Assembly (NCBI GenBank): GCA_009746045.1
Contig: RPFO01001063.1
Span: 62,001-126,000, forward strand
Direction: 5' to 3'
DNA: 64,000 nt
Source of the DNA: Mesostigma viride
Lineage: Eukaryota; Streptophyta; Mesostigmatophyceae; Mesostigmatales; Mesostigmataceae
The position numbers and the translations under genes were made by a program. The notes beneath the pieces were generated by a model. The model ran no database searches. It was not told where the DNA came from and saw nothing but the letters and a program-made list of their open reading frames with translations. Positions 36,508 through 45,444 of the stretch are shown one piece after another (positions within the stretch are counted from its first letter, which is position 1; the number at the start of each line of letters is the position of its first letter).

Positions 36508-39500
36508 TTAGCTGGCTGCCTTCTTGGGCTTGTACTCCATGAACTGGAGTCGCACGAGCGGGTAGCCCTTGTCGCGCACCCACACGCCCGAGGGCCCCCA
36601 GCGCAGCTCCTCCCACCGCAGGTTGCGCTCCACCACCTGCCAGGGACGGGGTGGAGGAGAATCATCCACCGACCAGAATAATCCCACACCATTTATTTAT
36701 TGATGAATAAATAGATGACCCATTTAACAATTAGGTTGACCGAACAGGCCTTGCCATCGGGAGCGGGGGGAGCTTGCAAGCCCTTGACAGCCTGCACCAA
36801 TTATTGAGGGAAAACTTGTGACCACCTTCCTTTACGCAATTCAAAGCCACTAGAAGGTTCCCAGAACCTCTTGAATTAAATTAATTTGCTATATCATGAA
36901 CTCCATAACGCCATCAAGCGGCATCGGTGACCCTTCAATGACTATCGTAACAATCATATGAACCTTTCCCATCAAGACTCGTGACGATGATAGCAATAGA
37001 AAACGCTGAAAAAATCCCCCACCCGGTTGCACCTCCACCTACTTGGGCGGCAGCGGTGCACCACATTTTTCTAATAGTCTAATATGCAGACTACTAATAA
37101 GATACAATAGCTAATTGTTTTGCCGGAACAGGTCAAGGTGCACAGAACCCATCCCGCGGCAGCAGTGCACATCACACCAATAGTGCAACTCATCTATGAC
37201 TGTCTGGCACCAATTAAAAATATATACTAAAGCAATTCCACAAGTAAGCACCCACATCCACCTGCTCCGGCGGCAGCGACTTCCCGCAGGACCACAACTA
37301 TTATTCTGACGACTATTCACTATCAAATGTCACTTTCACACCGTTATGTCTCATGGGCTTCATCCCCCCCCCCATCACTCCCCTCCACCTTCATCTGCTG
37401 GCAGCAGCGTCCCTAAGTAGCTAATAAAGAAATTCCTGCTATGCACAGTTTTTGGGGGGAATGACAAGAAAGACAGCCCCCACCCACCTCCACCTCATCC
37501 GGCCGCAGCGGTGGTGGCCCCCTCTCCTTACCAAAAGGATGGAAAAGCAGCAACCCACCTCCACCTCGTCCGGCGGCAGCGGCGTCCCCTTCTCTTCAAT
37601 CCCCACGACCGTCAGCGGCCGCTTGCAGCGGCTCCAGCGGTACAGCTCCTCGTCACACTCATCGCCTCCATTCATCAGCGACGCGCTGTTCCCAGCACTA
37701 ATACTATTCCCCGCGCCCGCGTTCACCAGCGCCACCGACGAGGATCCCACCCCGACCGCCTGGGCCCCTGTGGTCAGACCCACCGCAGCGGCATCCGCCG
37801 CGGGACCATTGCCCACCGTGCCGGCACCAGCAGAAACCGAGCCCGCCACGACTCCCAATGTCACCCCCCCCGGAGCTGCCGCCGCCGAAGAAGCAACCAT
37901 GCCGCTGGCCTCGCCGTTGCCCGCCGATGGAGCATTGGTCCCCGACGATGTGGCATCCGCGGGGCCACCCCCCGTGGTGGATGACTGTGTACCCTCGGCC
38001 CTAGTGGTCCCGTCCCCATTGGCAGCTGATGGGGCCGCACCGGTGGCAATGCTGCCACCCTCGGGGTTCCCACCGCGGGTGAGCTCCTCCCCGGCGTTGC
38101 CGTCAGCGGGCCTGGGAGGGTGCCGGCTCTCGCACGACAGCTCGTACCTGGGTGGGCGAGGTGGCGGTGGGAGGGATTGGGGGTGGTAGGAGGGATTAAT
38201 GAACATCATACTAGGGTGTGGGGGGGGGGATGCTGGTTGTCTCATTGATCACACTAGTCTGTATGTTAGTGATACATGTTGTACCAGGGACGGGAAGGGG
38301 ATAGATAGAGGATAGGGGGTCAAACGGAAGGGGGGAGGGCCAGGGAGAGATGAAGAAACATTATGTGACACATCTACATGAAAGATAAGCAGGGACAGGG
38401 ACTTGCTAGGCTCTCACATCCGATACATCGGATACAAAGATGCGATCGCATATCTTGGGGGCGTCGGGGTGGGTTGATGAAGCAGGAACATGATGTACGC
38501 GGGGATTACCTTGAACTTTGGGGTGGGTGGGGGGGGTGGGAAGAAAGCCATGAATTTCAGATGTATAGTGTGCCTCGACAAAGAGCACCTACTGCGCCAT
38601 GTGAACAGGTAATCAATACAAGTGGGCATGGACAGCTGACAGATAGGGCTGATAGGCTGCACAGATAGGCTCCACAGGCTCCGCTAAAGTCCTCACCTGG
38701 TCGAGGGCGCTTCGTAAAAAAGCACCCCCTGCGTGACACGGATTAATAGGGTCACTTTATAATAGGGTCACTCTATACTAGGGTCACTACACAAGGGCAT
38801 ATAACAGTATAGAAGGGAATAGGCCACATGTCCAACAAACCCTCACGTGGTCGAACATATCTCCACATAAAAGCACCTCCTGCGTCACACGTCGTAACAT
38901 CCACAGCTGTATATCAGTACCCCCCCCACAACCTAGAACAGTAGAGTAAGGGACAAGTGTAAGGGAGTCGTGTACGGGAGAATGCTATTAAAAAAAGGGT
39001 GCGCCCTCACCTAGTCGAGCGCGTCTCCACGTAGAGCACTTCCTGCGTCACGCGGAAGGACGTCCACTGCTCCGGCTTGAGCCCGCGGTCGGCGATGACC
39101 GCGGTGCTGTACTTGAGCCTGAACAAGACGGATGATGAGAGCAAGCATCAAGGGAGGGTCAGACTCACAGGTAGCAGCTCACTGCCGGCGATGAAACCGG
39201 TACTACTTGAGAGTCAGAACAAGGAGGTTGAAAGAGTATGGGAAAAAGGAAGTATGCTTGAGTGAGAGCTCACAACCCGCGACCACTGCCGTGCTGTACT
39301 TGAGCCGGGGGGTGAAGAAAGCAAGGATTAAAGGGAATATCAAGGAGGCAGAATATGACTATGCTTGAGTGAGGTTTATTATTTATATAGGATGAAGGGA
39401 CTACTTCTACGAGAAAGTGTTTAGTGCTTGCTCACAACCCGCGGCCACCGCCGTGCTGCGCTTGAGCCTGCATAAGTGACACGAGTGGAGCTCAAGCATT

Positions 39501-45444: not shown

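Follow-up and report, generated by a model that had tools for sequence, protein, structure and literature searches.

Introns of an Rxt3 homologue and of other genes in the green alga Mesostigma viride contain copies of their own splice junctions

The DNA analyzed here (the window) is a 64,000-nucleotide stretch of Mesostigma viride, covering positions 62,001 to 126,000 of contig RPFO01001063.1 (assembly GCA_009746045.1). A minus-strand gene runs from exon E1 (45444-44972) to exon E9 (36636-36508), and its joined exons form a single open frame of 578 codons plus a stop, with all eight introns bounded by GT-AG. Pfam search of the translation revealed an Rxt3 domain (PF08642, E=1.3e-14). An M. 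viride protein in EukProt (jgi Mesvir1 Mv05062-RA.4) is identical across the 206 residues searched, and the full EukProt P0001 sequence matches the E1-E9 model as far as the end of E8, from where it enters intron 8. The Klebsormidium homologue aligns gap-free across the junctions E1/E2 to E7/E8, with one 2-residue gap at E8/E9. Judged from its sequence, the gene is an Rxt3 homologue, with exons backed by the matching EukProt protein and the Klebsormidium homologue. Seven of the nine exons are only 61-129 bp long, and the introns span 636-1127 bp. The exons are listed below, E1 resting on the open frame and the EukProt model, and E2 to E9 on the open frame and the Klebsormidium alignment.

44972..45444, minus strand, exon E1 (exon 1 of the original prediction; P0001 has an additional exon upstream, at 48334-47876)
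43784..43844, minus strand, exon E2
42711..42809, minus strand, exon E3
41977..42074, minus strand, exon E4
40830..40949, minus strand, exon E5
39931..39998, minus strand, exon E6
39011..39118, minus strand, exon E7
37565..38147, minus strand, exon E8
36508..36636, minus strand, exon E9, stop codon included

In the P0001 gene model, E8 is extended into intron 8 up to a stop (window 37439-37565), which suggests that an intron-retention or early-termination isoform may exist. In the genome assembly searched (2243 contigs, 440 Mb), the exon 8-9 stretch found itself as the sole match. A whole-genome search with the Pfam Rxt3 profile recovered 0 of 1 with three candidates scored, probably because the exons are too short; Rfam and tRNA scans of the 64-kb window gave no matches. 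The published assembly of strain NIES-296 comprises 442 Mb in 2363 scaffolds, with 24,431 genes; its introns average 1142 bp, 30.1% of intron space consists of repeats, and the excerpts of that genome paper contain no mention of junction copies (PMC6947507).

A (GT)26(GA)23 microsatellite at window 40005-40102 lies a few bases upstream of E6, where it forms a pyrimidine-rich tract, and a GGAT-type array of 306 bp (window 45457-45762) ends 12 bases upstream of E1. Such long microsatellites adjoining the true acceptors of E6 and E1 seem to serve as polypyrimidine tracts. Elsewhere in the window, a pentamer GCTTG array of 3.1 kb (9384-12530) has 99% matches.

Each junction of the Rxt3 gene was represented by a query of 45 bp on either side, which was matched against the intron it belongs to and against the gene's remaining introns. 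At 10 of the 17 junctions the own-intron score, ranging from 30 to 109, lies above 27, the highest value among the gene's 136 wrong-intron comparisons. These junctions are the ends of E1, E3, E4, E7 and E8 and the starts of E2, E3, E4, E5 and E7, among which the match at the start of E3 is wholly intronic and does not cross the junction. The remaining nine are those for which the original prediction had claimed copies in the neighbouring intron, and the claim held at all nine, which account for 23 of the 24 matches catalogued. The ends of E1, E3, E4, E7 and E8 have 5, 1, 1, 2 and 4 copies, and the starts of E2, E4, E5 and E7 have 1, 1, 2 and 6, the lowest in quality being those of the E2 and E4 starts. 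The copies, defined by alignment except where stated, and the tandem array at E1 are as follows.

44814..44993, minus strand, tandem array of a 77-bp unit x 2.3, from 22 bp within E1 into intron 1 (95% matches; full-unit identity 0.94)
44865..44916, minus strand, E1 donor copy, GT kept, 94%
44806..44839, minus strand, E1 donor copy, GT kept
44670..44695, minus strand, E1 donor copy, GT lost (CT)
44622..44652, minus strand, E1 donor copy, GT lost (TT)
44531..44558, minus strand, E1 donor copy, GT kept
43966..43980, minus strand, E2 acceptor copy, 15 identical bases, AG kept
42592..42630, minus strand, E3 donor copy, GT kept
42145..42161, minus strand, E4 acceptor copy, 17 identical bases, AG kept
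41885..41919, minus strand, E4 donor copy, GT kept by eye (aligned portion 41897-41919)
41168..41204, minus strand, E5 acceptor copy, AG lost (AA)
41060..41090, minus strand, E5 acceptor copy, AG kept
39818..39835, minus strand, E7 acceptor copy, AG kept
39700..39720, minus strand, E7 acceptor copy, AG kept
39536..39571, minus strand, E7 acceptor copy, AG kept
39447..39476, minus strand, E7 acceptor copy, AG kept
39279..39306, minus strand, E7 acceptor copy, AG lost (A outside the alignment, read from the sequence)
39186..39231, minus strand, E7 acceptor copy, AG lost (AC)
38840..38891, minus strand, E7 donor copy, GT kept
38691..38742, minus strand, E7 donor copy, GT kept
37482..37511, minus strand, E8 donor copy, GT kept, 93%
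37382..37413, minus strand, E8 donor copy, GT kept
37250..37285, minus strand, E8 donor copy, GT kept
37030..37056, minus strand, E8 donor copy, GT kept

The array at 44814..44993 is the youngest donor-junction array with full units in the gene. As predicted, most copies have recognisable splice sites: the dinucleotide is retained in 18 of the 23, comprising GT in 11 of 13 donor copies (including the E4 copy, judged by eye since its alignment ends too early) and AG in 7 of 10 acceptor copies. In a scan with sliding 40-mers, a match of score 28 inside 1.2 kb was reached by 60% of donor-edge and 35% of acceptor-edge windows, compared to 4% in exon interiors, 14% in deep introns and zero windows in far controls. 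Two other claims stood in part. Copies were expected at nearly every intron, and six of the eight contain them, whereas intron 5 has none and intron 2 only the non-crossing match. Identity was expected to decay with distance from the true exon; the trend is not significant within the Rxt3 gene (rho -0.23, p=0.29, n=24), and emerges among the crossing copies of the pooled set described below (rho -0.41, p=0.0013, n=58).

For the wider sample, chaperonin (PF00118) and kinesin (PF00225) exons, chosen regardless of copies, were found by profile search of the M. viride genome, and introns between profile-contiguous exons were defined by frame and GT-AG. Chaperonin gave 66 matches, the best 30 of which were taken to loci, with the single-exon C2011 and a lone C1106 match excluded; among 23 exon pairs, 20 were refined, 2 skipped and 1 left unresolved, and 2 of the 20 were dropped as unreliable, leaving 18. 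For kinesin, 28 stretches were picked from 131 matches for exon contiguity and compactness, prior to any repeat inspection, and their 45 exon pairs were reduced to 30 by dropping 11 that scored low, 1 that was skipped and the 3 belonging to the identical C622 stretch. The kinesin stretches C2:6330400-6334300 and C622:17550-21450 are identical over 3.9 kb, probably due to assembly redundancy, and C622 was left out of the counts. The query for pooling consisted of 40 exon and 25 intron bases, and a junction was positive at an own-intron score of at least 28.

By this rule, positive donors and acceptors number 5/8 and 4/8 in the Rxt3 gene, 8/18 and 1/18 in chaperonin, and 9/30 and 5/30 in kinesin genes. 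Pooled over 56 introns of 26 genes, 32 of 112 junctions are positive, with donors (22/56) ahead of acceptors (10/56, p=0.02); the difference persists without the Rxt3 gene (17/48 versus 6/48, p=0.016) and is weaker for copies crossing the junction only (19/56 versus 9/56, p=0.048). The controls for the 56 introns are nearly empty, giving 1/248 for wrong introns of the same gene, 1/112 for exon segments 40-105 bases off the edge and 0/112 for inverted segments. Altogether 26 introns and 13 genes are affected, and the counted junctions are copy-free in the other 13 genes, two of which have copies at single-sided junctions. The single-sided chaperonin junctions lie outside the pooled counts, and at score 28 they gave 5/17 donors and 3/13 acceptors (one non-crossing), so that the donor-acceptor contrast is absent from this small set; their null of 1.5% of 790 comparisons, with a maximum of 50, is inflated by the near-identical C1641/C887 pair. 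Copy-bearing introns are longer than copy-free ones (857 versus 558 bp, p=0.0006), although longer introns also give more room for copies. Junction copying is thus a habit of the genome rather than a peculiarity of one gene, on the basis of the three gene families sampled. The density of arrays differs within a family: 3/8 junctions at C777:133624-144311 and 3/10 at C1546:1770480-1777163, compared to 0/4 at C557.

In the youngest arrays, units of 70-88 bp are duplicated in tandem, head to tail, starting 20-28 bp within the exon. A chaperonin donor array has three additional copies with 98% identity, and two kinesin donors have tandem arrays with periods of 70 and 88. Fourteen junctions have a nearest crossing copy of 92% identity or more. 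Four of these, the E1 donor of the Rxt3 gene, the chaperonin donor and the two kinesin donors, show whole or nearly whole-unit tandem homology (1.00, 1.00, 1.00 and 0.94; periods 77, 76, 70 and 88), and the remaining 10 show partial unit homology of 0.03-0.79. Moreover, two near-identical chaperonin gene copies, either paralogues or alleles (C1641:59444-71710 and C887:340105-351164, the former with ~3.1 kb extra in an intron), are 98.3% identical over 5.7 kb and differ by eight indels of at least 5 bp, three of which (7, 18 and 43 bp) are tandem duplications or contractions. In C887, one junction copy is without its decoy donor, the gap being 17 bp or 6 bp depending on the alignment. Together with the young head-to-tail arrays, the tandem indels of this pair indicate frequent local tandem duplication in introns. 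A rough estimate, based on as few as three events, assumes three events for every 100 substitutions, units of 75 bp and a divergence of 12%, and arrives at ~0.27 straddling events per junction, the right order for the observed frequency. The predicted growth of introns by tandem duplication of junction-straddling segments is hence supported, as those young arrays that are legible as whole units run head-to-tail from a point within the exon. Junctions are not the sole targets, however: intron-interior 65-mers also have local copies (15%, 20% and 26%), which makes junction duplication part of a general process.

Positional profiles of 30-mers were compiled at scores from 24 to 48 out of a maximum of 60, with scores of at least 48 taken as young copies. 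At low stringency there is a donor-edge peak of 0.40 against 0.15-0.22 in the interior, fading across ~30 exon bases, and no clear peak at acceptors (0.17). From score 24 up to 42 the donor edge exceeds the interior, by 0.10 at score 42 (interval 0.012-0.20). At the highest stringency of 48 it stands at 0.10 against 0.06-0.07 in the profile, with an interior rate of 0.053 per window, and the difference of 0.038 is not significant (interval -0.031 to 0.111). Young copies of the acceptor edge were found in 0 of 53 windows at score 48 or more, and the rate stays low over the 60-100 bases upstream; acceptor minus interior is negative at both 42 and 48. The direct contrast between donors and acceptors, which depends on 5-9 junctions, is 9/54 versus 0/53 at score 42 (p=0.003; without Rxt3 7/47 versus 0/47, p=0.012) and 5/54 versus 0/53 at score 48 (p=0.057; without Rxt3 5/47 versus 0/47, p=0.056). 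In addition, the nearest copies lie farther away at the nine acceptor junctions than at the 19 donors (p=0.003). Our reading is that copies are born at roughly equal rates, that donors tolerate and acceptors purge them, and that old donor copies are over-counted because one member of each pair is a conserved exon.

The strongest competing explanation regards donors as mutational hot spots, where G-rich sequence (e.g. GTGGGTGGG) would form transcriptional R-loops or G4s that lead to breaks, tandem duplication and a donor excess. Many donors are indeed G-rich, and the surplus over the interior at scores 24 to 42 agrees with a local hot spot; the excess nevertheless loses significance among the copies of highest identity, and exon anchoring alone predicts a seeming surplus of old donor copies. 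We therefore regard such hot spots as improbable.

We propose instead that frequent local tandem duplication, tolerance at donors and anchoring by the exon together explain the junction copies of M. viride, an explanation in which we have fairly good confidence. In its introns, units of tens of bases are often duplicated locally and in tandem, as the young arrays and the indels show. When a unit spans a donor, the outermost copy would still yield an intact exon and only the intron length would change, a nearly neutral event, so that the exon edge at a donor could be recopied repeatedly. By contrast, a unit straddling an acceptor would need the long branch point-pyrimidine tract-AG signal and would set a decoy AG upstream of the true one, and selection presumably removes most such units, as the absence of young acceptor copies suggests. 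As protein-level selection holds the true exon while its copies drift, junction copies would stay recognisable longer than purely intronic ones, which would lead to their apparent over-representation.

As for the choice among near-identical sites, the use of the outer donor is inferred from protein homology and the gene model. In human genes, sites that compete beside long introns are paired across the exon, and among 3' sites the upstream one is favoured overall, according to excerpts of PMC9225289. If this rule from human data applies, the right site is probably set by exon definition, that is, by the closest pair of sites across the exon, which would select the outer donor and the last acceptor, namely the true sites, and the upstream lean of 3' sites would render acceptor decoys more damaging. 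Exon definition combined with this lean would fit the donor/acceptor asymmetry. The usual boundary between intron and exon definition lies at an intron length of about 250 bp. A bolder version envisages a genome-wide directional ratchet as a major route of intron growth, in which each donor sheds copies downstream and the spliceosome ignores intact, near-identical donors closer to the 3' site, whereas acceptors are barred by their long signal and a first-AG-wins rule; we consider it conceivable, though somewhat less than probable. If true, the asymmetry would reveal, in a natural setting, how a basal streptophyte chooses its splice sites.

The fate of the copies bears on whether they have a function. 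The differences between Rxt3 copies and exons fall at 20/175, 21/173 and 43/173 of the first, second and third codon positions, and the excess at the third (43/173 versus 41/348 at the first two) gives p=0.0002, a value that is too small as copies in the same array are non-independent. Among 84 differences 38 are synonymous, compared to 24% under random changes. We estimate that a copy evolving neutrally next to a constrained exon should show ~40% synonymous differences and a third-position excess of ~2:1, and coding selection would give more; the observed excess approximately matches the neutral ratio. In the pooled set, 36 of the 43 donor copies that cross the junction retain GT, where their identity predicts 33.6, and 13 of the 15 crossing acceptor copies retain AG, where 11.5 are predicted; the median identities are 0.88 and 0.86. 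Selective silencing of the decoy sites was rejected, since retention is close to the neutral expectation. Each of the ten intact Rxt3 donor decoys put to the test, which leaves aside the E4 copy, would lead to a frameshift or a stop if used, and a multiple-of-three distance is found for 9 of 49 intact decoys overall. An initial impression that acceptor copies are devoid of the pyrimidine tract, based on a shorter aligned intron side (median 7 versus 16 nt, p=7e-5), was abandoned: the low complexity of the tract, its partial masking and its probably rapid change cut the alignments short, and nearest-copy distances of 82 bp or more suggest that acceptor units do contain it.

Hence the idea that the copies are functional, as alternative donors or acceptors or as decoys that tune splicing through competition, can appeal to the many intact sites, but appears quite unlikely in view of the broken frames, the spacing of the decoys, the neutral-like divergence and the site retention near neutral expectation. 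The original prediction had also raised the question of alternative exons; alternative coding exons were rejected on account of frameshifts, stops and neutral decay, with differences concentrated at third codon positions. In our proposed explanation the copies would be functionless, and they look like dead decoys decaying neutrally. An artefact of long-read polishing, or chance low-complexity similarity, could be suspected from the 98-100% identity of some arrays; it is highly unlikely, given the lower median identity of crossing copies, the masking of simple repeats and the nearly empty wrong-intron and inverted controls. Introner elements occur in some green algae, yet dispersed mobile or introner-like elements that fortuitously bear splice sites are the least credible source of all, as the youngest full arrays are tandem and related copies at unrelated loci are nearly absent, introns of other genes matching junction segments at score 28 or more in 0.18% of 1116 and 0.36% of 1676 comparisons.

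Transposons are the usual explanation for long introns. The introns of M. viride are visibly fed by ordinary tandem duplication, and the conserved exon edge provides a reference by which the events can be counted and roughly dated. They also offer a natural experiment on splice-site choice, with 36 intact duplicate donors in a near-true context among 56 introns and young duplicate acceptors in 0 of 53 windows. The alga is cultivable and could serve to distinguish exon definition from first-come or proximity rules.

Several known systems resemble these copies in part. Intronic minisatellites are head-to-tail arrays with turnover, and the arrays of the alga are head-to-tail as well; unlike in minisatellites in general, their first or last unit belongs to an exon, and the exon edge acts as a conserved source. 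In intron gain by tandem genomic duplication, the unit contains splice sites, as it does here, and a new intron arises, whereas in the alga an existing intron lengthens. The underlying mutation is a tandem duplication in both cases (PMC4974935, in excerpts). Repeats at intron borders were also described by Rogers and Bendich (2025), in whose paper, according to its excerpts, a direct repeat of 4-30 bp connects an intron's 5' border with its 3' border and is interpreted as an insertion footprint (PMC11782384); by contrast, the alga repeats a single border within its own intron.

The closest parallel is found in the mirages of amphioxus, and excerpts of two papers are the source for the comparison (PMC3087553, PMC3902484). 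Literature searches on junction copies, splice-site competition and Mesostigma introns returned this structure, among the matches listed, only in these two lancelet papers and in no alga. The original prediction's claim of no described gene with such copies at nearly every intron is wrong in the light of these structures. In both organisms, tandem units cover the exon edge, the splice site and the adjoining intron, and both 5' and 3' boundaries are hit (in the alga 22/56 donors and 10/56 acceptors; 19 and 9 crossing). In amphioxus many, though not all, copies retain AG/GT, as in the alga (GT 36/43, AG 13/15), and the copies are partly diverged, with 81-100% identity in BflGb6 and a median of 0.86-0.88 in the alga. 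Splicing was reported to be undisturbed and copy number to differ between haplotypes (PMC3087553); in the alga, one pair of near-identical gene copies shows intronic tandem indels, with one decoy donor removed. Mirages are also found in another lancelet gene and in TnC (PMC3902484). The host here is a green alga rather than a chordate, with copies in 13 of the 26 genes and 26 of the 56 introns sampled, and the donor bias without young acceptor copies has a counterpart in neither set of excerpts, where asymmetry is unmentioned. Overall, the arrays of the alga, as read from their sequence, share the structural features of mirages compared above; the kind itself is known from amphioxus, and what is new, as far as the literature searched shows, is the lineage, how common the copies are and the asymmetry between donors and acceptors.
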